From Cafeteria roenbergensis (Eukaryota > Sar > Bigyra > Bicosoecida > Cafeteriaceae), in the NCBI GenBank assembly GCA_008330645.1, contig VLTN01000029.1:124001-188000 (forward strand): a stretch of DNA of 64,000 nucleotides. The letters run 5' to 3'. Under the pieces are notes generated by a model, which was not told the origin of the DNA, made no database searches, and saw only the letters and a program-made list of their open reading frames with translations. How positions within the stretch are numbered: position 1 is the stretch's first letter; every line of letters begins with the position of its first letter. A program made the position numbers and the translations under genes. This document shows positions 24,701 through 46,602 of the stretch, one piece after another.

Positions 24701-27700
24701 CGAGCTCACGAAGCCGCGCGCCTCGGCGGCGGGCAGCGGCTCGTGCTGGACCGACCACTCGAACCGGAACGTGGGCGCGTCCGCCTCCAGCTCGGCCGCG
24801 CTGCCTTGGACGGAGGGGTGCGTCCCGTTGCTGCCCACGAGCGCCACGGGGGCGAACACTCCGGTGTCGGCTGAGGCGACCACGACTGCGCTCGCGACCC
24901 TCGCCGCCGCGCTGGGCCGGTCGTTGCACCGGAGGGCAACGGTGACGTTGGCGCTCGACGCCACGCACGGCTCTGCCACTGTGAACCGGAGATCGTAGTC
25001 CCCAGCGAGAGACGCCCCCAGGCTGGCCGCGTCGAAGGGCCGCAGGGCGTCGTAAGCGGGCATGCCCACCACCAGCGAGGCGGCGGCGGCGTGGCCCAGT
25101 GCCGGGGCGGACGGGCCGGCGGGCTGCGTCAGCAGGGCGGCTCCGGCCGCGGCGCCGGACGGCACGCTGTCGACAGACCAGGTCCACGTCTGGTTGGGGT
25201 GAAGGTACTGGGAGCCGCCGGTGAGAGACGCCTGCATCGCGCACTGGCCTGGCGCCGAGGCCGAGGCGTTGACGGCGCAAGCGGCCGCCTCCAGGTCTTC
25301 CCCGCCCACGCCCGACAGGCCCGTTGCCGCGGCCTGCGCGTCGAACGCGGCCCGCGAGGTGCCGAACCGGCTCCCCGGCCGGGCGTTCCACACGAGGGAC
25401 ACGGGCGAGGCGGCCGCCGTGGCGAAGGGCGACGTGGGGCACAGGGCCTCCACGACGACGGCGGTGGTGTCGCTCGCGCAGCCGTCAGATACTGCCAGCT
25501 GCACGGTGTACAGCACCGAGGCGGCGCCGCCCCCCGTGTCCGCTGCGGCGGTAATTTGCTGCGCGGGCGGCGTGAACAGCACGGCCTCGCCCCTCCCGAA
25601 GCCCGCCAGCGGAGTTGTGTAGTCGGGCCCGCCCCCCGCCCCAAACGTCTTCGCGAAGCCGGCGGCGGGGCTTGACACGCCCGTGAGCGTCCACTGATAA
25701 GAGCTGATGTCCGAGAGACCGTCCGGGTCGTGCGAGTAGGTGCCATCCAGGGCAACGGACGGGAAAGAGCCGTTGCCCAGACCGCTCGCCGTGGCGTTGA
25801 ACCGAACTGTCTGTCTGTGACCGTTCACGCCCGCCCGCGGAGCTCCGTTGCAGCTGACTGTGACTGTGACGACGTCCGACGAGGAGGAGCACCAGTCGGA
25901 CACCGTCAGCCGCAGGCTGTACTGTCCGTTGACGTCGGGCGTGAAGCTGGCGGTGCTTGCAAAGGCGCGCGCTCCAAAAGGCTCTGCCGGCGCGAGGGCG
26001 GCGAGCGACGACCCCGCCGGGGCCGCGAGCAGCTCCCAGCTGTAGCGGAGGCGGGAGGCGTCCTCAGGGTCTGGGTCGGTTGAGGCGGAGCCGTCCACAG
26101 CGACCGGCACGAAGGCGTTGCGGGGGCCCCGCAGCACCCGCTGGTGGCCCCCCGCGTTTGCCACGGGCGGCGCGTTGCAACGGACACTGACCACCATCGG
26201 CACGGCCCGCGAGGAGCAGTTGTCCGCCGCGCGCAGCGACACGGCGTAGTCGCCCACCGAGTCGACCACGAGCCGCGCGCCGGACAGCAGACGCCGGCCC
26301 GACACGGCCGCGACGGACCTCGCCCCGGCTTTGCAGGCGTCGCTCATGACAGAGCCCGCGCAGGGGGCCTCCCCCCAGGACCCGACCTCGCCAGCCGCGG
26401 CGGCGCTGCCCGCTCGGGGCACCGTCAGCAGCGACCACTCCACGCTCACCCCCGCGCCGGCGCTGGCGCCAGCGCCGTCGTCGGCGAGGGTTCCGTTGAG
26501 AAGCGCCGAGGGCGGCTCTGCCGGGGCGTTCACGACCAGGTCGGCCGGGCCCACGGCTGTGCGCGCCGCTGCAGAAGCGGCCTCGCGGAGGCGCGTCGCG
26601 TTGGCAAAGTGGGCCAGGGCAGAGCCAACGCGTAGCACCACCACGGGCGCCTGCTCCACCGCCCCGGCGCCACCGGAAGCCGAAGGAACAGTGGTGAAAC
26701 CGCCGAGGAGCTCTGCCGAAGGAGCGACGCGGGGAATCGGCGGGGAGGCGCAGGAGGCGGTAACCGTGACGTCATCGGTGGCGACGGCACAGCCGTCCGA
26801 GACGGTGACTCGCAGGCGATAGACCCCCTCCACGTCCGGCACCAGCGCCGCGGACGAGCCATACACCACCGGGCGCCCCGCCACGGCGCGTGGGAGCGCA
26901 AAACGGCCGCGAGACCGCCGGTGCGGCGGTGCGCCGTCCACTGCCGAGGCGAGCAGGGCGGCCGGCAGCGCCGAGCCCACGGGCGCGTCCACCAGCTCCC
27001 AGAAGAACGAGCTGCCGTTGGACGCGAGTTCCGGGAACGCCGTCCCGTTTGCTCGCAGCAGCACTGCCGAGAAGGCCGATCCTGCCACTGCCTCTGCCAG
27101 CGACCGGTTGGGGCCGGCAGAGCTGCTCGACCAGGCGGCCAGCAGGGCGGTAGAACCCGCCTCTGCCGCGCCAAGTTCGCCCAGGTCCACCGGTGCAGAG
27201 CCGGCTCTGCCGGCAGACACGACGTTGCGGTCGGGGCCGGCGTCCGCAGCGACGCCCGCCGGGCAAGCCGTGACCACGGTGCCTGCAACGGTGCGGGATC
27301 CGCAGCCGTCGGACACCGTGGCCTCGACCGAAAAGGACCCCGCTGTGTCCGGCAGCAGCAGCGCCAGCGGCGACTGACGCGCCTCGCGGTCGGACCTGGC
27401 CACCACGGCTGCGAGCGCTGCGCGGCCCTGCTCCGAGAGGTCGCGGCCGTTCGGGCTGCGAAGGCCGCTGCCGAGCGAAAGGCTGGCCGCCGAAACCGCA
27501 GATGACACATCCGCGGCCGACACGTCCGGCCTCAGAGGGACGATGGCAGAGCCTGCCGCCGACGTCGGAAGGGCAGAGCCAGTAGGCGCATCGGATACCT
27601 TCCATGAGATGTCGGCGAGCGCGGATGCCGCCAGCGGCGCCGCGGCGCGGGGCGCGGCCGCCGCCGATGCGTTGAGGAGGACGGGGAGGAAGCCCCCCGC

Positions 27701-28760
27701 CATCGCTGCGCAGAGAAGCGGCGCGGCGCACATCGGACGCAATGCACGCGCGTGGCTGATGGGGGGCTGTGGCGCCTGGGGCGCAGCGGAGGCAGCGTGA
27801 CCGGCTGCAACGGCGGCGGCAGCGCGGCAGTGGCGCGCAGAGACTCACCGTCAAATGGGGCGGCAACCTGGCCTGCCGGGTTGGCCGGCCAGCCGAGCAG
27901 GAGCGGAGTGCTGGTCTCCGGGGGACAGCGGACGTCGAGCGTCAGCGAGTCGCGAAACACGCTGCAGCCGTCGTCCGCCGTCAGCTCAACGCGATAGGTG
28001 CCTGGGCGCGACGGCAGAAACGACGCAAACAGCCCGGCCTCGCCGCCGCCGCTGGCGGCGCCAGAGGTGGCCAGGGCGCTGTCGCCCGTCAGGAGGCTCG
28101 GCGAGGTGCACACGCCCAGGGAGCCACCACCAGCGGCGCCGCCGGCCGGTCCGGGCGCGATGGGGGCTGCGCGGGCGCAGGGCGGGGGAAGCGGTGAGGG
28201 GGGTTGAGGGGGCGGCAGCGAATGGCAACAGCTTCAGGTGAATCACGACAGCGCCGGCAGCGACCGCTTGCGCTGCAAGCCGCAAGGGGCTGTCGCTTAG
28301 AAAGGGCGCGAGTGCGCGCTGGGGGAAGTGGGGGGGAAGGGGCAGTGCCGGCACGACACGCGAAGGGCTTCGCCCTCCTTTGTCTGGCCACAGCCGCTCG
28401 CTCACCTTGCAGGAAGATAGGCCAGGCGCGCTCGTCGGAGGAGTTGGCTAGCAGGCCAGAGGTGGCGTTGCGGATGCCGGCAATGGCGCGAAGGACGCGG
28501 CGCCCGGCCTCCGGAACGACGAAGGGCGACGAAAAGACGGTCAGGGGCAAAGTGCCGTCAGTGCTGTACAGGATAGTGGCGCCGGGAGAGGTGCTGGAGA
28601 GGGAAAACTGGGTACTGCCCGCAGTGTGGACTGCTCCCGCTGGTGAAAGCGTGGGCGCGGCCACGCCTGCGGCCAGGGCCAGCTGGGCGGGAGCCGCAGC
28701 AAACAGCGAGACCGCAACCCAGGCCGCGCAGGCAACCCGGCCGTGGCCCGGGGCAGTCAT
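9782..28760 (-). CDS. Giant PKD-repeat transmembrane adhesin (three exons)
   Basis: Exons on the minus strand: 28760-28406, 28166-27849 and 27705-9782. Introns (239 and 143 bp) are GT-AG, both phase 1, and the joined length (18,597 nt) is an exact multiple of three, giving ~6,198 residues. Order of parts: signal peptide; chitobiase C-terminal-like domain; about 30 PKD-like beta-sandwich repeats, most ending in SDGC with a second Cys ~13 residues later; a lectin-like insert; a Ser/Thr/Pro stalk; a SEA-like domain; one membrane helix (AAAVLACILLLLLVVGLVAA); and a ~230-residue Ser/Gly/Pro tail. N-glycosylation sequons (NAS, NGS, NVT) are abundant. The protein is probably a long cell-surface fibre for attachment, prey capture or mating. 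PKD repeats are known extracellular spacers and adhesion modules; the specific role is inference. The last exon, ~17.9 kb, has no intron. The 9-mer GGCTCTGCC is strongly enriched. Confidence 0.9.
10479..10562 (-). other. Transmembrane helix of the giant adhesin
   Basis: An uninterrupted hydrophobic run (VAAAVLACILLLLLVVGLVAAL) is followed by TGRCGS, a short basic stop-transfer signal. About 230 residues of low-complexity cytoplasmic tail follow, rich in Ser, Gly and Pro with scattered Arg. Confidence 0.9.
10640..11020 (-). other. SEA-like membrane-proximal domain
   Basis: A globular segment begins VVSFSVRLQGASASDLSS, has a GVDVSAVSLDGV strand, then APGRRLQASRAEVQVAVP and a final VSVTSTDLPSRPV. 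The strand-helix-strand pattern with an RR.L motif resembles membrane-proximal domains of protist and algal surface proteins. The SEA-like label is structural analogy only. Confidence 0.45.
11030..11375 (-). other. Ser/Thr/Pro mucin-like stalk of the giant adhesin
   Basis: About 110 residues made almost only of Ser, Thr, Pro, Ala and Gly (repeating TPSSTATPS and SASPTAPPT style) lie between the last PKD-like unit and the membrane-proximal domain. This composition is typical of O-glycosylated, extended stalks. Confidence 0.85.
24100..24648 (-). other. Lectin-like (DUF1554-type) domain inside the PKD array
   Basis: About 183 residues interrupt one PKD-like unit. They start HHVFVTSTGYDGNLGG, continue AGADDKCRRHARLAG, and end CSQPAHLLCVRA. 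The FVTs..YdGnlGG.aGAD..C pattern matches the DUF1554 family (C-type-lectin/endostatin-like fold) known from secreted Leptospira and algal proteins. Six cysteines and the tail LLCV fit a disulphide-held lectin fold. This is the only clear ligand-binding domain in the giant protein and sits about a fifth of the way from its N-terminus. Family assignment is by eye. Confidence 0.7.
28406..28760 (-). other. Exon 1 of the giant adhesin: signal peptide and chitobiase-C-like domain
   Basis: The exon starts at ATG 28760 (MTAPGHGR) with a hydrophobic core VACAAWVAVSLFAAAPAQLA, chosen over upstream open frame because it gives a clean signal peptide. It continues into PGATILYSTDGTLPLTVFSS, which fits the CHB_HEX_C family pattern (pGa.IyYTtDGs.Pt) found in chitobiases and many secreted proteins. 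It ends at donor CAAG|GTGAGC (28405). Splicing to the acceptor at 28166 keeps the frame (FLQ-A-PIAPGP). Confidence 0.75.
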
Positions 28761-29109: not shown

Positions 29110-32100
29110 ATGGCCAACCTCACCCCAGATGCGCTCGCAGACGCCATTGCGGCCGGCCAGTTCGACAAGGTGCTGGCAGCAGTCGACGGCGGGCTCAGCA
29201 AGGACAGCTGCCTGGTGCGTTTGCCGAATGGCCGCTGTGGGGCAGGCTCTTGGGGCACCCCGCAGGCGGATTGGCCAGGGGTCAAGAATTGGCGTTTGCA
29301 TGCCGGAGCATGCGACGCAGGTGCGCGGGGGCACGCTCGGAGCGAACAGGCAGCCGCGCAGGTCGGGAGCGGCTTGACAACTGTGTATTGTTTTCGCTGT
29401 GATGTCTTGCCTGCAGAGCGGGCGCCCACTGCTTATTGAGGCAGCAGCTGCCGGAGGAACCGCCCTCGTGGAAGGGCTGCTGAACCGTGGCGCGGACGTG
29501 GCGACAGAGGCGCCAGTGAGCGCCAACAGCTGAGAGGTTGTTGACGGCTGCGTTGGAGAATACTCTGGGCGCCTGCGAAGCACCCTGGACTTGGCACTTG
29601 GGCATGTTTTCGCCATGGCATTGCTTTCTGCCATGCGTTCAGGTTGTGCTAGGCGTTGAGGCGGCCATGATGGCGACTGGCGTGGCTGTGCGTGATCGTT
29701 GCTGGGTGATGCGACTGCAGAAGGGCTGGACGGCGGTCATGGCGGCTGCACAGCACGGCCACGAGTCGACGGCGGCGCTGCTGCTGGATCGCGGCGCCGA
29801 CGTGGAGGCACGAAGCAAGGTGAGCGGCGCTGTTGATCCGTGTCCTCGTTGGCGAAGCGGCGGCGCGTTGTCCGCCACGGGCGGGGTGTGCTCGCATGGT
29901 TGGCGGTGGACGGGTGCGGGCAGTGGTCGGCCGGCAGCGTTGGTGGGGCGCTGCGGCTTGCGCGCAGTGTGCGAGGCGGCGTGTCCTCCGCGGGTGTGGG
30001 GTGGCGGTCGCGGAGGGGGTCATGGCGGCGGCACGGGGTGTCGTGGGGTCTGGTGGTGTGTCGGTCAGGGCCAGGGTCGGTGGCGGGTGCGGTTGCGCGT
30101 GGCCGGGGCCGGGCGCTGGGTGTGCAGGGCGTGGTGCGGCGTGCGAATGTGCGTTGCTGGCCGTCTGGCGGGGGCGAGGGTCACAGCAGTGGCCGATGGG
30201 CGGTGTGTGGGGTGCAGCTGCGGGGGCGATGGCTGGCGGCCGTGACGAGCTCTGGGGGGGTGTGGGCGCATGCGTGTTGTGTTTGATGGGTTGGGCATTG
30301 TGCTTGATGGCGGGGGTGGCTGTCTGTGGCACGGGTCGGTGTGTGGGTGGAGGGCATGCGGTGGTGTGGCGGCCGTGATGGCGACTGGCGTGGCTGCGCG
30401 TGGTCGTTGCTGGGTGATGCGACCGCAGAATGGCTGGACGGCGGTCATGCTGGCTGCAGAAAACGGCCACGAGTCGACGGCGGGGCTGCTGCTGGATCGC
30501 GGCGCCGACGTGGAGGCACGAAACAAGGTGAGCGGTGGTGTTGATCCGTAGCAGCGGAGGCGGAGCGGCGTCGCGGCGTCCGCCACGGGGTGGGTTGTGC
30601 GCGTACGGTTGGCGGTGGACGGGTGCGGGCAGTGATGGGCCGGCAGCATTGGTGGGGCGCCCTGCGGCTTGCGCGCAGTGTGCGAGGCGGCGTGTCCGCA
30701 TCGGGTGTGGGGTGGCGGTCGCGGAGGGGGTCATGGCGGCGGCACGGGGTGTCGTGGGGTCTGGTGGTGTGTCGGTCAGGGTCAGGGTCGGTGGGTGGCG
30801 CGGTTGTCGGGCCGGGGCCGGGCGCTGGGTGTGCAGGGCGTGCGCGGCGTGTGTGCGAATGTGCGTTGCTGGCCGTCTGGCGGGGGCGACGGTCGCAGCA
30901 GTGGCCGATGGCGGTGTGTGGGGTGCAGCTGCGGGGGCGATGGCTGGCGACCGTGACGAGCTCCGGGGGAGGAGGGGGGGGTGGGCGCATGCGTGTTGTG
31001 TTTGATGGGTTGGGCATTGTGCTTGATGGCCGGGGCGTGGGTGTGGCACGGGTCGGTGTGTGGGTGGAGGGCATGCGGTGGTGTGGCGGCCGTGATGGCG
31101 ACTGGCGTGGCTGCGCGTGGTCGTTGCTGGGTGATGCGACTGCAGAATGGCTGGACGGCGGTCATGCTGGCTGCACAGAACGGCCACGAGTCGACGGCGG
31201 GGCTGCTGCTGGATCGCGGCGCCGACGTGGAGGCACGAAACAAGGTGAGCGGTGGTGTTGATCCGTGGCAGCGGAGACGGAGCGGCGTCGCTGTGTCCGC
31301 CACGGGCGGGGTATGCGCGTGTGGTTGCCGGTGGACGGTTGCGGGCAGTGCTGGGCCGGCAGCGTTGGTGGGGCGCTGCGGCTTGCGCGCAGTGTGCGAG
31401 GCGGCGTGTCCGCAGCGGGTGTGGGGTGGCGGTCGCGGAGGGGGTCATGGCGGCGGCACGGGGTGTCGTGGGGTCTGGTGGTGTGTCGGTCAGGGCCAGG
31501 GTCGGTGGGTGGTGCGGTTGTCAGGCCGGGGCCGGGCGCTGGGTGTGCAGGGCGTGGTGCGGTGTGCGAATGTGCGTTGCTGGCCGTCTGGCGGGGGCGA
31601 CGGTCGCAGCAGTGGCCGATGGCGGTGTGTGGGGTGCAGCTGCGGGGGCGATGGCTGGCGGCCGTGACGAGCTCCGGGGGAGGGGGGTGGGTGGGCGCAT
31701 GCGTGTTGTGTTTGATGGGTTGGGCATTGTGCTTGATGGTTGGGGCGTGGGTGTGGCACGGGTCGGTGTGTGGGTGGAGGGCATGCGGTGGTGTGGCGGC
31801 CGTGATGGCGACTGGCGTGGCTGCGCGTGGTCGTTGCTGGGTGATGCGACTGCAGAATGGCTGGACGGCGGTCATGCTGGCTGCACGGCACGGCCACGAG
31901 TCGACGGCGGGGCTGCTGCTGGATCGCGGCGCCGACGTGGAGGCACGGGACAAGGTGAGCGGTGGTGTTGATCCGTGGCAGCGGAGGCGGAGCGGCGTCG
32001 CGGCGTCGCGGCGTCCGCCACGGGGTGGGGTTGTGCGCGTACGGTTGGTGGTGAACGGGTGCGGGCAGTGATCGGCCGGCGGCATTGGTGGGGCGCGGCG

Positions 32101-35100
32101 GCTTGCGCGCAGTGTGCGAGGCGGCGTGTCCTCCGCGGGTGTGGGGGTGGCGGTCGCGGAGGGGGTCATGGCGGCGGCACGGGGTGTCGTGGGGTCTGGT
32201 GGTGTGTCGGTCAGGGCCAGGGTCGGTGGGTGGTGCGGTTGTCGGGCCGGCAGCGGAGGTGGGTGTGCAGGGCGTGGTGCGGTGTGCGAATGTGCGTTGC
32301 TGGCCGTCTGGCGGGGGCGACGGTCGCAGCAGTGGCCGATGGCGGTGTGTGGGGTGCAGCTGCGGGGGCGATGGCTGGCGGCCGTGACGAGCTCTGGGGG
32401 AGGGGGGGGGGTGGGCGCATGCGTGTTGTGTTTGATGGGTTGGGCATTGTGCTTGATGGCCGGGGCGTGGGTGTGGCACGGGTCGGTGTGTGGGTGGAGG
32501 GCATGCGGTGGTGTGGCGGCCGTGATGGCGACTGGCGTGGCTGCGCGTGGTCGTTGCTGGGTGATGCGACCGCAGGATGGCTGGACGGCGGTCATGCTGG
32601 CTGCACGGCACGGCCACGAGTCGACGGCGGGGCTGCTGCTGGATCGCGGCGCCGACGTGGAGGCACGAAGCAAGGTGAGCGGTGGTGTTGATCCGTGTCC
32701 GCGGAGGCGGAGCGGCGTCGCGGCGTCCGCCACGGGGTGGGATGTGCGCGTACGGTTGGCGGTGAACGGGTGCGGGCAGTGATGGGCCGGCGGCATTGGG
32801 TGGGGCCCGGCGGCTTGCACGCAGTGTGCGAGGCGGCGTGTCCTCCGCGGGTGTGGGGTGGCGGTCGCGGAGGGGGTCATGGCGGCGGCACGGGGTGTCG
32901 TGGGGTCTGGTGGTGTGTCGGTCAGGGCCAGGATCGGTGGGTGGTGCGGTTGTCAGGCCGGGGCCGGGCGCTGGGTGTGCAGGGCGTGGTGCGGTGTGCG
33001 AATGTGCGTTGCTGGCCGTCTGGCGGAGGCGACGGTCACAGCAGTGGCCGATGGCGGTGTGTGGGGTGCAGCTGCGGGGGCGATGGCTGGCGGCCGTGAC
33101 GAGCTCCGGGGGAGGGGGGGGGGTGGGCGCATGCGTGTTGTGTTTGATGGGTTGGGCATTGTGCTTGATGGCCGGGGCATGGGTGTGGCACGGGTCGGTG
33201 TGTGGGTGGAGGGCATGCGGTGGTGTGGCGGCCGTGATGGCGACTGGCGTGGCTGTGCGTGGTCGTTGCTGGGTGATGCGACCGCAGGATGGCTGGACGG
33301 CGGTCATGGCGGCTGCATTCAACGGCCACGAGTCGACGGCGGGGCTGCTGCTGGATCGCGGCGCCGACGTGGAGGCACGAAGCAAGGTGAGCGGCGTTGT
33401 TGATCCGTGTCCGCGGAGGCGGAGCGGCGTCGCGGCGTCCGCCACGGGTGGGTTGTGTGCGTACGGTTGGTGGTGAACGGGTGCGTGCAGTGATGGGCCG
33501 GCGGCATTGGTGGGGCCCGGCGGCTTGCACGCAGTGTGCGAGGCGGCGTGTCCTCCGCGGGTGTGGGGTGGCGGTCGCGGAGGGGGTCATGGCGGCGGCA
33601 CGGGGTGTCGTGGGGTCTGGTGGTGTGTCGGTCAGGGCCAGGGTCGGTGGGTGGTGCGGTTGTCAGGCCGGGGCCGGGCGCTGGGTGTGCAGGGCGTGGT
33701 GCGGTGTGCGAATGTGCGTTGCTGGCCGTCTGGCGGGGGCGAGGGTCACAGCAGTGGCCGATGGCGGTGTGTGGGGTGCAGCTGCGGGGGCGATGGCTGG
33801 CGGCCGTGACGAGCTCCAGGAGGGGTGGGCGCATGCGTGTTGTGTTTGTTGGGTTGGGCATTGTGCTTGATGGCCGGGGCGTTGGTGTGGCACGGGTCGG
33901 TGTGTGGGTGGAGGGCATGCGGTGGTGTGGCGGCCGTGATGGCGACTGGCGTGGCTGCGCGTGGTCGTTGCTGGGTGATGCGACTGCAGGATGGCTGGAC
34001 GGCGGTCATGGCGGCTGCACAGAACGGCCACGAGTCGACGGCGGGGCTGCTGCTGGATCGCGGCGCCGACGTGGAGGCACGGGACAAGGTGAGCGGCGTT
34101 GTTGATCTGTGTCAGCGGAGGCGGAGGCGGAGCGGCGTCGCGGCGTCCGCCACGGGGTGGGTTGTGCGCGTACGGTTGGTGGTGAACGGGTGCGGGCAGT
34201 GATGGGCCGGCGGCATTGGTGGGGCCCGGCGGCTTGCACGCAGTGTGCGAGGCGGCGTGTCCGCAGCGGGTGTGGGGTGGCGGTCGCGGAGGGGGTCATG
34301 GCGGCGGCACGGGGTGTCGTGGGGTCTGGTGGTGTGTCGGTCAGGGCCAGGGTCGGTGGGTGGTGCGGTTGTCGGGCCGGGGCCGGGCGCTGGGTGTGCA
34401 GGGCGTGGTGCGGTGTGCGAATGTGCGTTGCTGGCCGTCTGGCGGGGGCGAGGGTCGCAGCAGTGGCCGATGGCGGTGTGTGGGGTGCAGCTGCGGGGGC
34501 GATGGCTGGCGGCCGTGACGAGCTCTGGGGGAGGGGGGGGGGTGGGCGCATGCGTGTTGTGTTTGATGGGTTGGGCATTGTGCTTGATGGCCGGGGCGTT
34601 GGTGTGGCACGGGGCGGTGTGTGGGTGGAGGGCATGCGGTGGTGTGGCGGCCGTGATGGCGACTGGCGTGGCTGCGCGTGGTCGTTGCTGGGTGATGCGA
34701 CTGCAGGATGGCTGGACGGCGGTCATGATGGCTGCACAGAACGGCCACGAGTCGACGGCGGGGCTGCTGCTGGATCGCGGCGCCGACGTGGAGGCACGGG
34801 ACAAGGTGAGCGGTGGTGTTGATCCGTGTCCGCGGAGGCGGAGCGGCGTCGCGGCGTCCGCCACGGGGTGGGTTGTGCGCGTACGGTTGGTGGTGAACGG
34901 GTGCGGGCAGTGATGGGCCGGCGGCATTGGTGGGGCCCGGCGGCTTGCACGCAGTGTGCGAGGCGGCGTGTCCTCCGCGGGTGTGGGGTGGCGGTCGCGG
35001 AGGGGGTCATGGCGGCGGCACGGGGTGTCGTGGGGTCTGGTGGTGTGTCGGTCAGGGCCAGGGTCGGTGGGTGGTGCGGTTGTCAGGCCGGCCGGGCGCT

Positions 35101-38100
35101 GGGTGTGCAGGGCGTGGTGCGGTGTGCGAATGTGCGTTGCTGGCCGTCTGGCGGGGGCGAGGGTCGCAGCAGTGGCCGATGGCAGTGTGTGGGGTGCAGC
35201 TGCGGGGGCGATGGCTGGCGGCCGTGACGAGCTCCGGGGGAGGGGGGGGGTGGGCGCATGCGTGTTGTGTTTGATGGGTTGGGCATTGTGCTTGATGGCC
35301 GGGGCGTGGGTGTGGCACGGGTCGGTGTGTGGGTGGAGGGCATGCGGTGGTGTGGCGGCCGTGATGGCGACTGGCGTGGCTGCGCGTGGTCGTTGCTGGG
35401 TGATGCGACCGCAGGATGGCTGGACGGCGGTCATGATGGCTGCACAGAACGGCCACGAGTCGACGGCGGGGCTGCTGCTGGATCGCGGCGCCGACGTGGA
35501 GGCACGGGACAAGGTGAGCGGTGGTGTTGATCCGTGGCAGCGGAGGCGGAGCGGCGTCGCGGCGTCCGCCACGGGGTGGGTTGTGCGCGTACGGTTGGTG
35601 GTGAACGGGTGCGGGCAGTGATGGGCCGGCGGCATTGGTGGGGCCCGGCGGCTTGCACGCAGTGTGCGAGGCGGCGTGTCCTCCGCGGGTGTGGGGTGGC
35701 GGTCGCGGAGGGGGTCATGGCGGCGGCACGGGGTGTCGTGGGGTCTGGTGGTGTGTCGGTCAGGGCCAGGGTCGGTGGGTGGTGCGGTTGTCGGGCCGGC
35801 AGCGGAGGTGGGTGTGCAGGGCGTGGTGCGGTGTGCGAATGTGCGTTGCTGGCCGTCTGGCGGGGGCGACGGTCACAGCAGTGGCCGATGGCAGTGTGTG
35901 GGGTGCAGCTGCGGGGGCGATGGCTGGCGGCCGTGACGAGCTCTGGGGGAGGGGGGGGGGTGGGCGCATGCGTGTTGTGTTTGTTGGGTTGGGCATTGTG
36001 CTGGATGGCCGGGGCGTGGGTGTGGCACGGGTCGGTGTGTGGGTGGAGGGCATGCGGTGGTGTGGCGGCCGTGATGGCGACTGGCGTGGCTGTGCGTGGT
36101 CGTTGCTGGGTGATGCGACCGCAGGATGGCTGGACGGCGGTCATGCTGGCTGCACGGCACGGCCACGAGTCGACGGCGGGGCTGCTGCTGGATCGCGGCG
36201 CCGACGTGGAGGCACGGGACAAGGTGAGCGGTGGTGTTGATCCGTGGCAGCGGAGGCGGAGCGGCGTCGCGGCGTCCGCCACGGGGTGGGTTGTGCGCGT
36301 ACGGTTGGTGGTGAACGGGTGCGGGCAGTGATGGGCCGGCGGCATTGGTGGGGCCCGGCGGCTTGCACGCAGTGTGCGAGGCGGCGTGTCCTCCGCGGGT
36401 GTGGGGTGGCGGTCGCGGAGGGGGTCATGGCAGCGGCACGGGGTGTCGTGGGGTCTGGTGGTGTGTCGGTCAGGGCCAGGGTCGGTGGGTGGTGCGGTTG
36501 TCAGGCCGGGGCCGGGCGCTGGGTGTGCAGGGCGTGGTGCGGTGTGCGAATGTGCGTTGCTGGCCGTCTGGCGGAGGCGACGGTCACAGCAGTGGCCGAT
36601 GGCAGTGTGTGGGGTGCAGCTGCGGGGGCGATGGCTGGCGGCCGTGACGAGCTCTGGGGGAGGGGGGGGGTGGGCGCATGCGTGTTGTGTTTGATGGGTT
36701 GGGCATTGTGCTTGATGGCCGGGGCGTGGGTGTGGCACGGGGTGGTGTGTGGGTGGAGGGCATGCGGTGGTGTGGCGGCCGTGATGGCGACTGGCGTGGC
36801 TGTGCGTGGTCGTTGCTGGGTGATGCGACTGCAGAAGGGCTGGACGGCGGTCGGGCTGGCTGCACTGAACGGCCACGAGTCGACGGCGGGGCTGCTGCTG
36901 GATCGCGGCGCCGACGTGGAGGCACGGGACAAGGTGAGCGGTGGTGTTGATCCGTGGCAGCGGAGGCGGAGCGGCGTCGCGGCGTCGCGGCGTCCGCCAC
37001 GGGGTGGGTTGTGCGCGTACGGTTGGTGGTGAACGGGTGCGGGCAGTGATGGGCCGGCGGCATTGGTGGGGCCCGGCGGCTTGCACGCAGTGTGCGAGGC
37101 GGCGTGTCCTCCGCGGGTGTGGGGTGGCGGTCGCGGAGGGGGTCATGGCGGCGGCACGGGGTGTCGTGGGGTCTGGTGGTGTGTCGGTCAGGGCCAGGGT
37201 CGGTGGGTGGTGCGGTTGTCAGGCCGGGGCCGGGCGCTGGGTGTGCAGGGCGTGGTGCGGTGTGCGAATGTGCGTTGCTGGCCGTCTGGCGGGGGCGAGG
37301 GTCACAGCAGTGGCCGATGGCAGTGTGTGGGGTGCAGCTGCGGGGGCGATGGCTGGCGGCCGTGACGAGCTCCAGGAGGGGTGGGCGCATGCGTGTTGTG
37401 TTTGATGGGTTGGGCATTGTGCTTGATGGCCGGGGCGTGGGTGTGGCACGGGTCGGTGTGTGGGTGGAGGGCATGCGGTGGTGTGGCGGCCGTGGTGGCG
37501 ACTGGCGTGGCTGCGCGTGGTCGTTGCTGGGTGATGCGACTGCAGGATGGCTGGACGGCGGTCATGCTGGCTGCACAGAACGGCCACGAGTCGACGGCGG
37601 GGCTGCTGCTGGATCGCGGCGCCGACGTGGAGGCACGGGACAAGGTGAGCGGTGGTGTTGATCCGTGGCAGCGGAGGCGGAGCGGCGTCGCGGCGTCGCG
37701 GCGTCCGCCACGGGGTGGGTTGTGCGCGTACGGTTGGTGGTGAACGGGTGCGTGCAGTGATGGGCCGGCGGCATTGGTGGGGCCCGGCGGCTTGCACGCA
37801 GTGTGCGAGGCGGCGTGTCCGCAGCGGGTGTGGGGTGGCGGTCGCGGAGGGGGCATGGCGGCGGCACGGGGTGTCGTGGGGTCTGGTGGTGTGTCGGTCA
37901 GGGCCAGGGTCGGTGGGTGGTGCGGTTGTCAGGCCGGGGCCGGGGCGCTGGTGTGCAGGGCGTGGTGCGGTGTGCGAATGTGCGTTGCTGGCCGTCTGGC
38001 GGTCGGGGCGAGGGTCGCAGCAGTGGCCGATGGCAGTGTGTGGGGTGCAGCTGCGGGGGCGATGGCTGGCGTCCGTGACGAGCTCCGGGGGAGGGGGGGG

Positions 38101-39301
38101 GTGGGCGCATGCGTGTTGTGTTTGATGGGTTGGGCATTGTGCTTGATGGCCGGGGCGTGGGTGTGGCACGGGTCGGTGTGTGGGTGGAGGGCATGCGGTG
38201 GTGTGGCGGCCGTGGCGGCGACTGGCGTGGCTGCGCGTGGTCGTTGCTGGGTGATGCGACTGCAGGATGGCTGGACGGCGGTCATGCTGGCTGCACAGAA
38301 CGGCCACGAGTCGACGGCGGGGCTGCTGCTGGATCGCGGCGCCGACGTCGAGGCAAGGACTTCGGTGCGTCTTTGGTGTGCTTTGCAGAGCCTCACGTCC
38401 TCGCGCAAATCGGTCGTGGCACTGCCCTGCATGGCCTTCTCCCTTCTGCCTGAGCTAACCACCTGCTAGAGCGCCTCGCGTCGACGTTCGCTCGTTCGGT
38501 GGCCTTGGGGCCCCTTGGCTGTTCTCCTGCCCTCAGGCGCCATTCCAGTCACTCTTGCTTTCTTGTTTGCGCCATAAGCCACCGCCTGGTTCTTGCGCGT
38601 GTCCTTCCGAGCTGCCGTGGTTTGCAGTCAGGCGCCACGGCACTGCTGATTGCGCTGAGGAAGTGCCGTCTCGGTGCTGCTGGTGTGCTCCTGAAGGCAG
38701 GTGCCGATATTGGAGCCTGCGATAAGGTGAGGAGGGTCGCACTTGGGAGCTGTCACGCCTCTGACCATCCGCTGTGCCCGAGACTCGCACTTCTTGGCAA
38801 GCGTGGGATGTCGCGCCGCATTTCGTTCGTGGGCACCGTTGCCTCTCAACAAGAGCGCGCATCGTAGACCGGACCGCATGAGCACAGGATGGCCGGAACG
38901 CATTGCTGACGGCTGCTTCCGCGGGCATGGAATCCATGGTGCGGGAGCTGTTGGATCGGGGCGCGGACGTGGAGGTGACCAATGTCGTAAGTTGCGCTTG
39001 GGTTCGGTTCGGGCTGCTCCACGTGCCTTGCAGGCGAACAAGTTCTGGGCAGCGGCATTTTCGTGCCCCGCACGTCCAGCGCTGCTGCTGCTTCCCTCGA
39101 AGCGCTCGGCTTGGCGCTGAACAATGCACTGCTTACTTGCACAAAGCCCTGTTTGTTTGCTCGCAGGCCGGCGAAACTGCGCTTTCCGTTGCCGCCAACG
39201 CCTCAGTGACGAGGGCGCTTGAGCAAGCTGACTGCCTCCAGCGTTGGCATCGGCGCGCAAACCTGGCTTTGTGGCGCCGAGCCCGTTCGGAAACCGGTTG
39301 A
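29110..39301 (+). CDS. Ankyrin-repeat protein, 18 exons, one 33-residue repeat per exon
   Basis: Predicted exons: 29110-29214; 29417-29515; thirteen 99-bp exons starting at 29721, 30429, 31146, 31856, 32576, 33288, 33990, 34707, 35415, 36125, 36835, 37546 and 38266; then 38628-38726, 38888-38986 and 39167-39301. All junctions are GT-AG and phase 0, giving ~607 residues. Exon 1 (MANLTPDALADAIAAGQFDK) is an N-cap and exon 18 a half-repeat C-cap ending RRARSETG. Array repeats follow [DNK]GWTAVM.AA..GHESTA then GLLLDRGADVEAR. This is a canonical ankyrin solenoid, a family that binds other proteins. No signal peptide, membrane segment or catalytic domain is present, so a cytoplasmic binding or recognition protein is likely. 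The partner is unknown. Outer exons 2 and 16-18 are diverged singles; the middle thirteen form a tandem array. The stop lies only ~11 bp before an R1 repeat. Confidence 0.88.
29721..38364 (+). repeat. Tandem array of thirteen ~710-bp exon-plus-intron units
   Basis: Exon starts are spaced 708, 717, 710, 720, 712, 702, 717, 708, 710, 710, 711 and 720 bp. Each unit is a 99-bp ankyrin exon plus a 603-621-bp intron, and the introns are nearly identical to each other. The last ~60 bp of the intron before exon 3 already match the unit, marking the left border; the right border falls within exon 15, whose final codons diverge. Introns carry mosaic block variants (for example cagcggaggtgg at ~32250 and ~35800; gcggaggcgac at ~33024 and ~36574; ctccaggagg at ~33815 and ~37371; ccgcagcggg at ~34260 and ~37820). 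All four pairs are five units apart. A G-run of variable length follows GAGCTC. Long minus-strand frames across the array are side effects of repetition. Confidence 0.93.
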
Positions 39302-39311
39302 GTTCATATTT

Positions 39312-39552
39312 TGGAAATGATCGAAATCTAGGGCTGCTGTTCAACTTGGTTGGCATCGAAACGCTACCGCTAAACCTTGCGAGCGCATGTGGCTCTGCTT
39401 TCTACGGCAGAGCTGCACCTCGCCGATCGTCAATCGTTTTGCGCCCTCCGAGAAGCGAGCGCACCCGGTGGTCTAGCCCACGTGGGCTTCCCGGGCGACC
39501 CCCCGTACCGTCTCGCGCGCGCGCCCCGTGTGTCGTGTGCGTGAACTCGTTT
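39312..39552 (-). repeat. Dispersed repeat R1, copy a (partial)
   Basis: This starts TGGAAATGATCGAAATCT about 11 bp after the ankyrin stop. Bases 39312-39510 match 46372-46570 with a single substitution, and 39312-39552 match 40874-40629 inverted at lower identity. No coding capacity. The family is unnamed; it may be a mobile-element end or a non-autonomous element. Confidence 0.85.
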
Positions 39553-39563
39553 GAACTCGTGTG

Positions 39564-39827
39564 ATGGCCTCTTCCACGCGTCGTTCGGCGGCCGCCGCGG
39601 CGGCCGCGGCAGCTGCCGTGTCAGCTGCCGTGGCTCCGGCGTCCCCGCCCGACCTGGTCGAGCCGCAGGACTTCCGGTTGGCAGACCTGGCGGCCGGCTC
39701 GTCCGACACCAGCTGGCTCGACTTCGCGAACGAGCTGGCGGGGCCCGATGGCCTTGTCTTGTCGGCGTTCCGCGGAGCGGCTCGGTGTCTTCCTGCCGAA
39801 CAAACGAAGGTTGAGTCGGAGACGTAG
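39564..39827 (+). CDS. Short ORF of 87 residues within the repeat-rich island
   Basis: ATG 39564 (MASSTRRSAAAAAA) to TAG 39827. After an Ala run the product reads DLVEPQDFRLADLAAGSSDT and TSWLDFANELAGPDGLVLSAF, which looks like real protein rather than shadow. It begins right after R1 copy a and may be a remnant or first exon of a gene carried by the repeat. I recognise no family. Confidence 0.3.
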   Translation: MASSTRRSAAAAAAAAAAVSAAVAPASPPDLVEPQDFRLADLAAGSSDTSWLDFANELAGPDGLVLSAFRGAARCLPAEQTKVESET

Positions 39828-39912
39828 ATTCTGCCCCGACAAGGCAGATGAGCCATCTGGTATCTGCTGACCTGAGTGGGCGTTGAGAGGCCGCTTGTTG
39901 GTGGAGGACTGG

Positions 39913-40140
39913 TGTTGACCTAAATGGCTAAAGTTCGGCGCGGCGGGGACCGCACGGGGTCGCCCGAGGGACGGGAGGGAGGGGTCAAACGATCGAATCG
40001 AGCACACGCACACCACTCGGGGCGCGCGCGTACGGCGGGTACGGGTGCGGTGCGGCCGGTGAGCCCACGCGGGCTCGAACCGGTGTGCCCGCCCAAAGGG
40101 CGAGCTTGCGAGCGGGTCGGGATGACCCGCGCCTGCCGTG
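39913..40140 (+). repeat. Dispersed repeat R1, copy b (left part, diverged)
   Basis: TGTTGACCTAAATGGCTAAAG and the following G-rich block (CGCCCGAGGGACGGGAGGG, then GGTCAAACGA) align with the start of copy c at 40561. The rest is more diverged and lacks the right-hand part. It contains GGCTCGAACCGG, which in reverse resembles a Pol III B box. Confidence 0.65.
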
Positions 40141-40560
40141 GGGCAGAGCGGGCCCGGTGTTGTTGCCACATCTGAAGGCGGCCTCTCAACTCGAGGGGAC
40201 AGCAGCACAAGATTTACATCACAAACAGTCACGACACTCTCTTGGGCTGCGCGGATTCCCCACAGCGTGCTGGGGGTGCCCCCGGCGTGACCCAGAGGGT
40301 CCCGAGCTCTCGTCTACCCGCCTGCGTCGGCGGCCAAGTCAAGCAGCTCTCCGGCAAGGCGCGCAGCGTGCACCTCGCTTTGCCCGCCGTGCCATGCGAA
40401 CGCTCGCACAGCACTCCAGGGCCCGTTGCGGTCGGCTTTGAGGTCGTGTCAGAGCAGAGCCGAATTCGTGGCCCACCCGAGCCATGGACGAGGCCCCCCT
40501 CAGAATTTTCTTCGATGCTATCTTGCTTCTGGTTGGCAGAGTGGAGGCGAGGATCGCCGA
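40141..40560. other. Gap between R1 copies, no gene seen
   Basis: About 420 bp of non-repeated sequence between copies b and c. Frames here are short and antisense to one another. I see no RNA gene or promoter I can support. Confidence 0.5.
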
Positions 40561-40874
40561 TGCTGACCTAGTGGCTAAAGATTCGGCTCGGCGGGGACCG
40601 CCAGGGTCGCCCGAGGGACGGGAGGGTGGGTCAAACGAGTTCACGCACACACCACACGGGGCGCGCGCGCGAGACGGTACGGGGGGGTCGCCCGGGAAGC
40701 CCACGTGGGCTAGACCACCGGGTGCGCTCGCTTCTCGGAGGGCGCAAAACGATTGACGATCGGCGAGGTGTAGCTCTGCCGCGGAGGGCAGAGCCACATG
40801 CGCTCGCAAGGTTTTGCGGTGGCGTTTCGATGCCAACCAAGTTGTACAGCAGCCCTAGATTTCGATCACTTCCA
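40561..40874 (+). repeat. Dispersed repeat R1, copy c (longest, ~314 bp)
   Basis: This copy contains both the left block shared with copy b and the right block shared, inverted, with copies a and d, so it defines the element. The right end reads GATTTCGATCACTTCCA. It has several differences from the a/d pair, so it is an older or different subfamily member. Confidence 0.75.
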
Positions 40875-40932
40875 AACCGGAAGTCCATCGAGGTCAGCAC
40901 GCTCGTGGCCTGCTCATCTAGTGCCACGTGGC

Positions 40933-43683
40933 TCACTCGCCTTCGGCCAGCGCTGCTGGCATGGGAGGCTCGGTATTGCCTGTGAAGGGGTTCCACCACT
41001 GGCCCGACGCTGCTGGCCTGCAGGAGGGCTTTGGAATACTCCCATCCCGGGGCTCCAATAGCCCGTCGGGGGAAGCACTCAAGGTCTTGCCGGCAGAACC
41101 TTTCCTGCCGGTGCACCGTTGCCGTGCGGGCCTCTCGATGTCAGCCGTCGTGAGCACTCCGGCGTTGTCATTGCTGGGCTGAGCTTCCCGATGGTTCGAC
41201 TCGGAGGCCTTGTTTTGAATTGCATCTGCTTTCCTGAGCACAGTCTGAGGCTCAGAGAGTGACGGGGCGCTTCGAAACGACATCCCTTCCGAAGCTGCTG
41301 CTCCGTGGGAGAAAGTTGGGCGAGGTGGCGTTGCTTGCCGAGGGTAGCACTGACTCATTCGCAGAATCGTAGCATCGGCCTCATCAAATGCGTCCAGAGC
41401 GCTCAACAGCAATTCAGCGTCTTGACTACGCCGGCCACCGCTGCTGGAGGAGCTGGAACCACGTCGCATTGCTGACCAAGCCGTAAAGCACAGAGCAGAC
41501 CCCAAGCTTTCGGCGGAAGCTTCGAGGCTTTCCGTGTTGGGGCTCCAAGTGTTGCGCGCGAACAGCTGGTACCGGGCAGCGTCGGCTGCCTTGTTCAGTC
41601 GTGACGCGCTGCTGATGGAGAGCATCAATGCAAGCGTTGAGGGGTCCACCGCCAAATCCAGCAAAGTTTCAGAGGGTACGATTGGGCTCGCTTCCGAGGA
41701 GGTTCTGGTCGCTGTTTTGAGCTCATTGCGAACTCTCCGCACAATTGTGCTCACACCAGGAGCTTTCGACCATGCGGTGGCACTGAGTTTGCAGTCGCGC
41801 AGAAAGCCGATGCAGACGGCCTCTCGCAGAAAACTTGCAGTATTACTTTCAGTACAACTTGCATCACGGTGAGTCAGAGCACTTGGTGCCTGTTCGTCCA
41901 TGACTTGATAACAAAGGCAGCACGATGTGGATGTCACGGCCCCGTAGCCGCCACAGGCGCAAGCAGCGTCTTCATCTTCGTCTTCGTCTCCGTCTACGAC
42001 TACGCTGCCTTCACCGTATTCGGCTCCGGCTGCGGCAGCGGCTGCGGGTCCGCCTGCGCGTCCTGCCTTGTCAACGTTGCCGTCATCGTGTTCAGCAGCG
42101 GCAGCGTCAGCGGCTCTGCTTCCAAGATCCAATGTGGACCCTTCTTGGGTGCTGGTGTCAGCGTCCTCCGAGGTTCCAGACGAATCCATGCGCTTCGACC
42201 TTTTGGCACCTTTGTTGTCCAGCTCGTTTCTGCTCCCGGCAGGTCCAGAATCTGGCCTAGCATCGTCCGCGTCTGAATCCGCCCTGCGCCGCTTCACACC
42301 CCGTGTCGCAATTCGTTCTTTCGCACTGGCCGTTGTTCTCTTCAAAACTATCTCGAGCGCTGCCTTCAGCTTGTCATTTTCCACACTCGGCCAAGCGACA
42401 GGCACCGCGTCTGGAGGCGTCTTGAGCAAATCCTCGGCCTTGGTTGACACATCTTTGCATGCCCTCGGCACGCTCTTCAGGAACTCGACCACTTCGGGTG
42501 CTGCTCCATATTCTCCCCGTGCGATCTTGGCAACCCTCTGGGCAGCCAGCACGATTGGAGACCGCGAAATAGAGAATTCTTTCGGCTTAGTCTCGCGCTC
42601 CAGCGCCATAGCCGCCATCAGAGCCGCCCTGGCAGAGTCGAGAGCCATCGACGCGACGTGAACAGCAGTCGCAGCTGTTTCCGGATTGGGGGCAGCCGCT
42701 ACGAGGTTGACTGCACGGGCGGCCAGAGAGGCTGCGACGACGGACGCGCTTGCTGCCTGCCGGGCCATCGAGAGCCGATTCACAGGCTGCGCTTTGCCTT
42801 GGCAGGCTCTGGGGAATTGCCACTTGCCGTCCGCGCCTGGGAGTTGTTCTGCCAGGGTGCACCTCGCATCGTGTCGTCGGCGGTTCAAGGGGCAGCAGTT
42901 CCAGACCTGCGCATGTTCGCCCAGCTTAGGAGCATCTCCCTCCAGGCCGTCCAGCGATGAGTTGAGCGACGTCCACGCCACCGACTCTGGGCGAAGCAGC
43001 GCCATCGAAGGCACGATGTTCTCGCGCAAGGACACGGGGTAGTTGTACACTTGGACGAGTCCGGCCCGGATGCCTTTCTGCCCCGAGGCTATCTGCCGAA
43101 TGTGCTCGAGCCCCTCGAATGCAGTTTTTGCCGCTTCGCGGAGAGAGAAGCTCGGAAGCTTGGCTTTATGTTCCGGGACCCTCACCGACGAAGCCAGGTC
43201 CAAGAACTTTTTCGCAAAGTTGCTCTTGGCAATGTCCTGCATCAAAAATGGTGCAGCTTCTGGCCGGACGAAGCTGCTCGGCCTTGAGTCACCATCACCA
43301 AGTGGCAGGAGCAGCTCATTTTGCCCGCTTTGCTTGACGGGGGAATTTCCCCAGGTGACAACGGGGGCCCAGGAGTGGTTTGTTGCCTTGTGCAGACCAC
43401 GGGCCTCATCAGTGAGCCAGTCCCGCAGCTTGGTCTCAAAGAATTTGATCTTGCTGCTTCCCTTGCCCGTGGCGTTGAGAGGTACGACGCCGTGAACCAC
43501 AAGGTCTGCCACCTCGCAGCCGGTCGACAGTTCAGTGTCCTTTGCGTAGTCGAGCGCTCTTCGCAGCGCCGCCTCAAAGTACTGCAGCGGGTCGACCTTC
43601 ATGTCGGGTCTGCAAGGCTTGTGTGTGGCCAACTCGACCTTACCTGCCTTGAGCAGAGGAATTCGCATTGTCGCGTCGGCCAT
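40933..43683 (-). CDS. Orphan nuclear-looking protein of ~916 residues, lower GC
   Basis: The frame runs to TGA at 40933-40935. I prefer ATG 43683 (MADATMRIPLLKAGK), where the sequence becomes well-ordered; the frame stays open to 44055 with a possible membrane-like stretch (TITVALVVLALCVS). The N-terminal ~320 residues look globular (FFETKLRDWLTDEARGLHK, EAAPFLMQDIAKSNFAKKFL). An Ala-rich helical part follows, then two basic clusters (GVKRRRADSD, GAKRSKRMD) that look like nuclear signals, a Glu/Asp run, and a Cys patch (CACGGYG, SCCLCYQ) that may bind zinc. The C-terminus is Ser-rich and ends PAALAEGE. GC content and codon use are visibly lower than in all long neighbours, and R1 repeats lie on both sides. 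This suggests acquired or mobile-element cargo. I saw no polymerase, integrase or capsid motif. Confidence 0.7.
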   Translation of the reverse strand: MADATMRIPLLKAGKVELATHKPCRPDMKVDPLQYFEAALRRALDYAKDTELSTGCEVADLVVHGVVPLNATGKGSSKIKFFETKLRDWLTDEARGLHKATNHSWAPVVTWGNSPVKQSGQNELLLPLGDGDSRPSSFVRPEAAPFLMQDIAKSNFAKKFLDLASSVRVPEHKAKLPSFSLREAAKTAFEGLEHIRQIASGQKGIRAGLVQVYNYPVSLRENIVPSMALLRPESVAWTSLNSSLDGLEGDAPKLGEHAQVWNCCPLNRRRHDARCTLAEQLPGADGKWQFPRACQGKAQPVNRLSMARQAASASVVAASLAARAVNLVAAAPNPETAATAVHVASMALDSARAALMAAMALERETKPKEFSISRSPIVLAAQRVAKIARGEYGAAPEVVEFLKSVPRACKDVSTKAEDLLKTPPDAVPVAWPSVENDKLKAALEIVLKRTTASAKERIATRGVKRRRADSDADDARPDSGPAGSRNELDNKGAKRSKRMDSSGTSEDADTSTQEGSTLDLGSRAADAAAAEHDDGNVDKAGRAGGPAAAAAAGAEYGEGSVVVDGDEDEDEDAACACGGYGAVTSTSCCLCYQVMDEQAPSALTHRDASCTESNTASFLREAVCIGFLRDCKLSATAWSKAPGVSTIVRRVRNELKTATRTSSEASPIVPSETLLDLAVDPSTLALMLSISSASRLNKAADAARYQLFARNTWSPNTESLEASAESLGSALCFTAWSAMRRGSSSSSSGGRRSQDAELLLSALDAFDEADATILRMSQCYPRQATPPRPTFSHGAAASEGMSFRSAPSLSEPQTVLRKADAIQNKASESNHREAQPSNDNAGVLTTADIERPARQRCTGRKGSAGKTLSASPDGLLEPRDGSIPKPSCRPAASGQWWNPFTGNTEPPMPAALAEGE

Positions 43684-45525: not shown

Positions 45526-45528
45526 GCC

Positions 45529-45997: not shown

Positions 45998-46371
45998 CTG
46001 GCCAGCGAGAACCGCGGGCAGCGTGCCGCTCTGCCAAGCTGCCGCGGGCCCTGCTGTGTTGTTGGGTTGGGTGGCGGATGCCTCCGCCTTGCGAGACTGC
46101 CCCCGGGGGCATTGGGTGCGGCCGGCGTCAGGACGGACCGATGCCGCTGTTGGGTCCCGGCGCGTGCAAGCTGCTCGTGCGCGGTCCGAAAGTGAAGCCT
46201 GTGCGGGACTGCCGCAAGCGCCTGAGGGGCGACGACGAGGCGGCGGGGGCGCCGAGTGTCAGCAGTTCTTCGCGACGGCACAGGGTGGACTGAGGAAAAC
46301 GCTTGGGTGACTTTGCAGCACCGGCAAAATTGTGAACTTGCAGGGCGCTGCGACGCAATCTTCGTGCCTCG
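45998..46371. other. Gap upstream of the panC fragment
   Basis: About 370 bp between the panC exon and R1 copy d. I searched the minus-strand frames for the missing N-terminal half of the enzyme and saw nothing like it. No other feature is supported. Confidence 0.5.
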
Positions 46372-46570: not shown

Positions 46571-46602
46571 GCAGCCCGCAGTGCATGCACGCAATCCAAC
46601 GC

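Follow-up and report, generated by a model that had tools for sequence, protein, structure and literature searches.

Why should the exons of a tandem array differ more from one another than the introns between them? The question is raised by a run of ankyrin exons in a 64,000-nucleotide stretch of Cafeteria roenbergensis DNA (the window), whose array is called C29 here.

Positions 29110-39301 of the window fit the model of one intact gene with 18 exons and a 607-aa protein, and the 17 introns of this predicted gene are all GT-AG and all in phase 0. Exon 1 (29110..29214, + strand; ATG, GT donor, phase 0) comprises the start codon and a 35-aa non-repeat N-terminal cap, and its protein is 100% identical to that of paralogues on C22 (two copies) and C133. 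Exon 2 (29417..29515, +; 99 bp, AG/GT, phase 0) encodes a divergent ankyrin-like cap repeat. The thirteen tandem 99-bp exons of the original prediction are borne out with coordinates of exactly 29721..38364 (+), each cassette being preceded by CAG and followed by GT. They start at 29721, 30429, 31146, 31856, 32576, 33288, 33990, 34707, 35415, 36125, 36835, 37546 and 38266, with a spacing of 702-720 bp from start to start. The 12 GT-AG cassette introns (603-621 bp, +; 29820..38265, a span that includes the intervening cassettes) contain one to five in-frame stops each and are G- and T-rich, with a GC skew of +0.42 to +0.46 (+0.22, +0.23, -0.12, +0.01 and -0.02 in the five non-cassette introns of the gene). 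Since intron lengths modulo 3 are 0, 1 and 2 among units, coding on the opposite strand through the array is unlikely. Exons 16 (38628..38726, +) and 17 (38888..38986, +) encode divergent ankyrin-like repeats and each has a similar exon in C22, C85 and C133, while exon 18 (39167..39301, +), with the C-terminal cap and the stop, has similar exons in C22, C85, C14, C38 (two), C111, C133 and C146.

The predicted protein matches Pfam Ank (PF00023) in 13 stretches (384.9 bits, cut-off 21.1; E = 4.5e-120), and ankyrin-type families are its only Pfam matches. A chain of four cassettes matches 440 distinct solved sequences, largely ankyrins and DARPins among the 60 listed, and a protein-database search gave E <= 0.001 for 6486 of 8000 scored candidates (identity 27-55% among the best 120 of the 6486, none of these a match at the level of species). 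No obvious signal peptide was found by eye in the 607-aa protein, which is predicted from its sequence to be an intracellular, ankyrin-only solenoid.

Among the 12 complete C29 units (66 pairs; cassette 13, with a different intron, was left out of unit counts), pi is 0.056 for the exon and 0.039 for the intron, and the exon value is the higher one in 49 of the 66 unit pairs. The proposal that exons diverge while introns stay nearly identical therefore holds on average, but 83 of 514 intron windows of 99 columns match or exceed the exon value, and the first intron quarter (0.062-0.067) is equal to or above it. The introns of C29 are homogenised rather than constant. The pair originally singled out as exons 8 and 13 fits cassettes 6 and 11, two upstream exons having probably been counted, and its reported contrast is confirmed: 11 of 99 exon bases differ, ten of them in amino-acid-changing codons and one silent, against 12 + 10 differences in the flanking introns (22/1214 sites; Fisher p = 1.2e-5). 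This is the extreme pair: the 12 closest-intron pairs have anywhere between 0 and 11 differences in their exons.

Within the cassettes, variation falls as predicted on codons 1 (D/N/K), 7 (M/G), 8 (L/A/M; CTG/GCG/ATG), 11 (CAG/CGG/GAA/TTC/CTG), 12 (N/H), 19 (A/G) and 32 (D/S/N/T), and additionally on codon 33 in the last exon alone. One of the two silent differences first listed, R31 CGG/CGA, is found as described (with AGG in the last exon), but the other, placed at V27, really concerns V28, where GTC occurs in the last cassette only. A diversity-generating retroelement would confine its changes to template-adenine sites, a pattern from which the alternatives at codons 8 and 11 depart. Among the 13 window exons, 30 of 171 variable-site pairs fail the four-gamete test (codons 1, 8, 11, 12, 31 and 32); hence recombination or recurrent change shuffles the sites.

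A designed ankyrin library described in PMC3308923 randomises repeat positions 2, 3, 5, 10, 13 and 14, which are codons 33, 1, 3, 8, 11 and 12 of the unit. In C29, pi is 0.200 at these six positions, 0.024 at the other codons and 0.039 in the intron, so that diversity relative to the intron is 5.2x at binding-surface codons and 0.6x at the remaining ones; an alternative set of DARPin contact positions gave 4.5x, in the same direction as the published set. Placements with the same spacing on the intron reach the contact value in 0 of 513 cases for C29 and match it in 2 of 517 for C22a. Of the codons originally proposed to contact ligands (1, 11, 12 and 32), the first three are designed positions but codon 32 (position 1) is not, while codon 8 (position 10), not named as a contact then, is a designed binding position.

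The contact/intron ratio is 3.7, 3.8, 3.8 and 6.4 in C22a, C85, C14 and C51, the introns of C51 being unrelated. Moreover, contact codons exceed other exon codons in 10 of 10 further array scans (permutation p from 0/20000 to 0.016), a set in which C51 is repeated, C5 and C90 are near-copies and units outside 240-365 bp were dropped. The codon-permutation p is 0.068 for C14 and 0.25 for C38b. An excess over the intron is absent in C38b (0.104 vs 0.186) and small in C38a (0.345 vs 0.221). Contact codons beat the neutral reference over a homogeneous framework in C29 and most arrays; C38b fails and is clearly outside the pattern.

Could such a pattern arise neutrally, with contact codons unconstrained, the framework constrained, conversion homogenising everything and the exon appearing variable through recent intron homogenisation? 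We regard this as unlikely, although several observations speak for it. The piN/piS ratio of C29 is 2.2 with a bootstrap that includes 1 (not significant), and of 17 array scans, 11 give a ratio below 1 (C85, C38a, C61, C60, C63, C36, C78, C135, C17, C5 and C90). Some of the intron varies as much as the exon does, and silent exon sites lie above introns in several arrays, for instance C85, C36 and C17; the exon/intron contrast is therefore partly a matter of intron homogenisation, beyond amino-acid replacement. However, simulations of neutral concerted evolution at matched intron diversity (one simple model with 12 units and conversion tracts of 60, 200 and 600 bp) reach a ratio of 5.2 in 1 of 450 runs and 3.7 in 3 of 450, while five arrays sit at 3.7-6.4. 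The diversifying selection that was first suggested is partly supported, by the binding-surface excess and these simulations, but dN/dS is no proof of it.

Further arrays of this kind are present in the genome, and in 12 of 15 arrays the exons are more diverse than the introns. The more homogenised the introns of an array, the higher its exon/intron ratio tends to be (Spearman -0.74, p = 0.0018, 15 arrays, without C90 and without C38a units <600 bp). In C29, C22a, C85 and C14, introns differ by 3-6% within arrays and 12-28% between them, yet nonsynonymous diversity within arrays (0.061-0.073) comes near to that between them (0.079-0.104); the ~202-bp C14 intervals were dropped before counting, and C38a units <600 bp were left out of the between-array comparison. 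Low differentiation is not specific for contact codons in every pair, the C22a-C85 Fst being 0.24 at contact and 0.18 at other codons.

These comparisons also bear on exon-limited exchange, by which short contact-codon tracts would be copied between cassettes, or exons swapped between arrays, with the homogenised introns serving as homology in an ectopic or programmed process. An 18-bp haplotype of codons 9-14, AAQNGH, is common to C29, C22a, C85 and C14, and AAQHGH to C29 and C22a, in spite of the intron differences between these arrays; the silent exon divergence of C29 and C22a is 0.041 and their intron divergence 0.125. In C36, units 3 and 5 carry a linked silent/replacement tract like that of unit 1, yet units 2-4 differ at only 1-2 of 244 intron sites and at 9-13 of 99 exon sites. 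On their sense strand the introns of the arrays are rich in G, which could favour R-loops. However, the shared haplotypes may be ancestral or recurrent, and C5 and C90, near-identical copies that differ by one lost cassette, show no excess of exon change (2/1089 vs 3/1649). Exchange of this sort is therefore not the explanation we would expect to hold, though it deserves some weight.

Two apparent differences in cassette number were rejected. C5 and C90 do not represent 15 versus 11 cassettes: there is one internal loss only within the aligned sequence, and the match of C90 to C5 ends past cassette 12, where a copy of a palindrome-ended, multi-copy element starts. Similarly, the haplotype-like contig C111, in which one cassette differs by one base from window cassette 5, is not a clean two-cassette allele. 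The multi-copy element occupies C111 upstream of 14106 and ends inside the array at C111:14106, so its cassette count is only known to be at least two. A scan of ten ORFs beside sister arrays for an effector domain gave one BTB ORF, ~2 kb upstream of the C36 array; it has no similar ORF in 27 other stretches and hence was treated as a separate gene.

Combinatorial alternative splicing, in which interchangeable phase-0 exons would yield isoforms with subsets of cassettes as in Dscam and brown-algal ROCO genes, seems doubtful to us. The uniform phase of all 17 introns is in line with it, and alternative splicing is reported for brown-algal LRR exon arrays (PMC11378527). However, the 12 intron bases upstream of the 13 window cassettes differ at a single position, and the donor has the same 8 bases in 12 of 13, so there is no hint here of regulated cassette choice. 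An assembly artefact or decayed satellite, with unit differences as errors and no gene at all, is very improbable: tandem arrays are difficult to assemble, intron G-run lengths vary and one C85 cassette has lost its GT donor, but frame and both splice sites are kept in 13 of 13 window cassettes, start and stop are present, the C111 cassette is only one base away, the codon alphabet is largely common to paralogous arrays, and multi-base codon replacements are atypical of read errors.

Taken together, we consider it rather probable that concerted evolution homogenises the introns and the repeat framework while selection keeps the binding codons different, in what would be a germline family of binding proteins. 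Because the gene model has one repeat per phase-0 exon, cassettes could be gained, lost, exchanged or skipped with the frame intact. Unequal crossing-over and gene conversion would homogenise each array internally, as suggested by intron divergence that is low within arrays and high between them, and selection would keep or favour differing residues on the binding face, since the diversity excess lies there. Variation at expected contact residues, repeated in more arrays, makes the family resemble a set of recognition proteins that is evolving; by analogy, the arrays may jointly form a germline repertoire of ankyrin proteins that bind partners or non-self molecules. A bolder version, which we hold only tentatively and think improbable, is a genome-wide germline library of ankyrin receptors for DARPin-like intracellular recognition, with homogenised, G-rich introns as recombination platforms and contact-codon tracts exchanged from cassette to cassette and from array to array. 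If true, it would comprise well over 100 phase-0 ankyrin cassettes across many arrays, and splicing and the mobile element that lands in arrays would possibly mix them further.

Since the arrays stand at differing stages of homogenisation and near-identical locus copies exist, the interplay of conversion and selection in modular genes is directly measurable here. For brown algae, arrays of LRR and TPR repeat exons with diversification on the binding face have been suggested to serve as immune repertoires (PMC11378527), and LRR exon arrays are described in a ciliate (PMC6564038); the window gene adds the ankyrin fold, in a different kind of protist. The host is tentatively read as a probable non-photosynthetic stramenopile, and light-harvesting PF00504 has no match in its genome. 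Among the best 120 matches to its HSP90, those with names come mostly from oomycetes and other stramenopiles (about 69-73%), a plant (66%) and a fly (64%) also rank high, and three proteins from the ena and lgn sources match at 98-100%.

The likeness to Ectocarpus repeat-exon genes drawn in the original prediction is apt. As described in PMC11378527 (where Zambounis 2012 and Teng 2023 are cited on such genes), brown-algal ROCO LRR arrays and NB-TPR genes share tandem one-repeat exons, uniform phase and binding-face diversity with the window, and exon shuffling is proposed for Ectocarpus and Saccharina. However, their LRR exons are 72 bp and phase 2, whereas those of the window are ankyrin exons of 99 bp in phase 0, and they possess a ROC-COR core, or NB with TPR, where the window protein has ankyrin-type families only. 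The Tetrahymena LRR arrays of PMC6564038 also have tandem uniform exons, and their introns are characteristic in length; exons of different genes are proposed to undergo ectopic exchange or conversion, and a mobile element is tied to the arrays. These are 90-bp phase-2 LRR exons in thousands of genes of a ciliate, unlike the 99-bp phase-0 ankyrin exons of the window, and the word 'ankyrin' is absent from the main text of that paper.

The comparison with PRDM9 concerns shared evolutionary logic and not homology. PRDM9 carries its diversity at contact codons, but its zinc fingers lie in one exon, bind DNA and have a fold unlike ankyrin. Near-identical tandem repeats with binding-tied diversity are common to both, with a mean dN/dS of 2.7 in PRDM9 (PMC5120217). 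DARPin libraries are man-made and randomise positions 2 and 5 as well (PMC3308923), which are fixed in the window array except for codon 33 of the last exon. They nevertheless combine a fixed framework with variable positions 3, 10, 13 and 14, equivalent to codons 1, 8, 11 and 12 (PMC3308923), and the division into framework and paratope in the window array is the one protein engineers chose for ankyrin libraries.

The thirteen tandem 99-bp ankyrin exons (cassettes) of the original prediction lie at 29721-38364 on the plus strand and fit an intact model of 18 exons (predicted gene 29110-39301, plus strand), with two exons upstream of the cassettes and three downstream. This model runs from ATG to stop and encodes a predicted protein of 607 aa, in which the Pfam matches are to ankyrin-type families alone; all 17 introns are GT-AG and in phase 0, and the anatomy of the gene is established from the sequence. 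An in-frame stop is present in each of the 12 array introns, hence intron retention would shorten the protein, which may function in recognition or as an adaptor.

Several codons of the cassettes are variable when the last exon is left out, namely 1, 7, 8, 11, 12, 19, 31 (silent) and 32. Repeat positions were numbered as unit codon + 2, anchored on the motifs G4-x-T6 and A11-A12-x-x-G15-H16, which are also carried by the consensus of a designed ankyrin library as described in PMC3308923. According to the same description, the library randomises six repeat positions (here contact codons 33, 1, 3, 8, 11 and 12), chosen for side chains that are oriented towards the binding surface (PMC3308923). 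Four of these six vary in our array (codons 1, 8, 11 and 12, i.e. positions 3, 10, 13 and 14), while in contrast to the library position 5 is an invariant W and position 2 differs in the last exon only. Of the codons proposed as ligand contacts, 1, 11 and 12 fall on designed binding positions (3, 13 and 14), and codon 32 corresponds to position 1, outside this set. Diversity (pi) is concentrated on the binding-face codons: it reaches 0.200 at the six designed positions, against 0.024 at the remaining 27 codons and 0.039 in the introns. Permutation of the codons gives p = 0.0022, and moving a mask of this codon spacing along the intron never yielded 0.200 in 513 placements.

The mean excess of exon over intron diversity is modest (0.056 and 0.039 over the 12 complete units; piN = 0.066, piS = 0.030, with a bootstrap of piN/piS that spans 1). 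The expectation that exons diverge while flanking introns stay nearly identical therefore holds for these means, and also for the divergent pair highlighted with it (cassettes 6 and 11; 11/99 exon sites versus 22/1214 flanking intron sites), but 83 of 514 intron windows of 99 columns vary as much as the exon or more. The introns are homogenised, for which unequal crossing-over and gene conversion would be responsible, while selection would maintain the diversity of the contact codons. That these codons are simply neutral is disfavoured by simulations under one simple model of conversion, duplication and loss, in which framework codons were frozen and contact codons evolved neutrally. With intron diversity matched to that of the array, the contact/intron ratio of 5.2 arose in 1 of 450 runs, and an earlier set with higher intron diversity peaked at 3.37 in 180 runs.

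Such arrays form a family in this genome (C-numbers denote contigs of the assembly, C29 being that of the window; a and b are separate arrays on one contig). Related introns are found in arrays on C22 (12 cassettes, and a second gene with at least 3), C85 (9), C14 (14) and C38 (9 and 7) and in fragments on C111, C133 and C146, while C51, C61, C60, C5/C90, C63, C36, C78, C135 and C17 carry arrays of 99-bp phase-0 ankyrin exons whose introns are of other kinds, mostly ~165-255 bp long. The same scan detected no further array in the remainder of the window. Among the papers listed in searches of the open-access literature, none described ankyrin exon arrays of this kind in its title or abstract opening. 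On the sense strand, G and T are enriched in the array introns of C29, C22, C85, C14, C38, C51, C61, C60 and C5 (GC skew +0.19 to +0.45), a bias that the last three introns of the window gene do not share. Cassette 4 of C85 (~89469-89567) has lost its GT donor (AG...TG), which suggests that it is skipped or decaying.

The contact-codon/intron ratio is 3.7-6.4 in C29, C22a, C85, C14 and C51, 1.6 in C38a, 0.6 in C38b and 1.5-9.4 over ten further scans (these repeat C51 with two extra units and include the near-copies C5 and C90). Whole-exon diversity exceeds that of introns in 12/15 arrays, and this excess grows as intron diversity falls (Spearman -0.74, p = 0.0018, 15 arrays). Among 709 unit pairs, which are not independent, the exon exceeds the intron in 152 and the opposite holds in 44 (Fisher p < 0.01). 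Units 2-4 of C36 are the clearest case (1-2/244 intron versus 9-13/99 exon sites), their exon differences being silent in part and many near codons 9-14. Of 17 array scans, 11 give a piN/piS below 1, so that in many arrays the exons predate the introns even at silent sites; either selection acted against conversion through exons, or exons were imported. Introns of C29, C22a, C85 and C14 differ by 12-28% between arrays and only 3-6% within, whereas nonsynonymous diversity is 0.079-0.104 between and 0.061-0.073 within. The low differentiation of contact codons (Fst 0.12-0.33; other codons 0.15-0.59) and the codon 9-14 haplotypes identical across several arrays imply that the same residues were kept, re-evolved or exchanged as introns diverged.

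The assembly comprises 36.3 Mb in 167 contigs, and G+C in the window is ~62-78% (2-kb bins). No match to a light-harvesting protein was found in the assembly, and the named matches of its HSP90 are mostly oomycetes and other stramenopiles (~69-73%, best 120 listed), with three unnamed proteins at 98-100% identity; the organism is tentatively regarded as probably a non-photosynthetic stramenopile. An open frame on the minus strand (9785-27844) extends over 6020 codons, matches PKD-like (K319L-like) domains and is possibly a giant intronless gene adjoining the array, and ORFs at 48141-51701 (minus) and 57547-63999 (plus) match leucine-rich repeats and, below the cut-off, ARMC5-like armadillo repeats. 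The stretch 39310-46600 is built of repeats and lower in GC, with an inverted repeat of ~245 bp (arms ~39310-39554 and 40631-40876) and a direct copy at 46372-46570; pieces of its repeats also adjoin arrays on C85, C14, C38 and C146.

The arrays on C5 and C90 are near-identical copies (2/1089 exon and 3/1649 intron differences over 11 cassettes and 9 introns), and C90 is without one internal cassette of C5. One cassette was lost, showing that cassettes come and go without surplus exon point change. C111 aligns to 46570-63136 of the window at 98.4% and so resembles the other haplotype; it retains at least two cassettes and a gene 3' end 86.6% identical to the window, but the divergent downstream exons 16 and 17 were not found on it, and it is either an allele that has diverged strongly or a chimaera of the assembly. 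A multi-copy element (C111:1-14106) ends at 14106 inside a cassette intron with a ~132-bp palindrome (near 13975-14106), and a copy of this end stops at C90:4492, precisely where the C90 array ceases to match C5. The repeated stretch of C111 recurs on other contigs, mostly at 94-99% identity. An ORF in it (positions 1372-2730, minus strand, of the C111 segment L025) matches Peptidase_S74, a family associated with phage tail proteins. On C146, a 1.75-kb repeat (4192-5942), also present on several other contigs, directly adjoins the array fragment starting at 5945, as if inserted into the array. Of 23 element copies, recognised by their last 500 bp (390 or more bases at 90% identity), two lie inside ankyrin exon arrays (C111 and C90), and at least four more, among the matches listed, have ankyrin or gene-family sequence no more than 300 bp away (C31:12433, C34:8088, C48:286802 and C86:7993). 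Judging from the flanks of these 6 of 23 copies, the palindrome-ended element may prefer ankyrin arrays, comparable to Tetrahymena, where a retroelement is described as tied to LRR exon arrays (PMC6564038).
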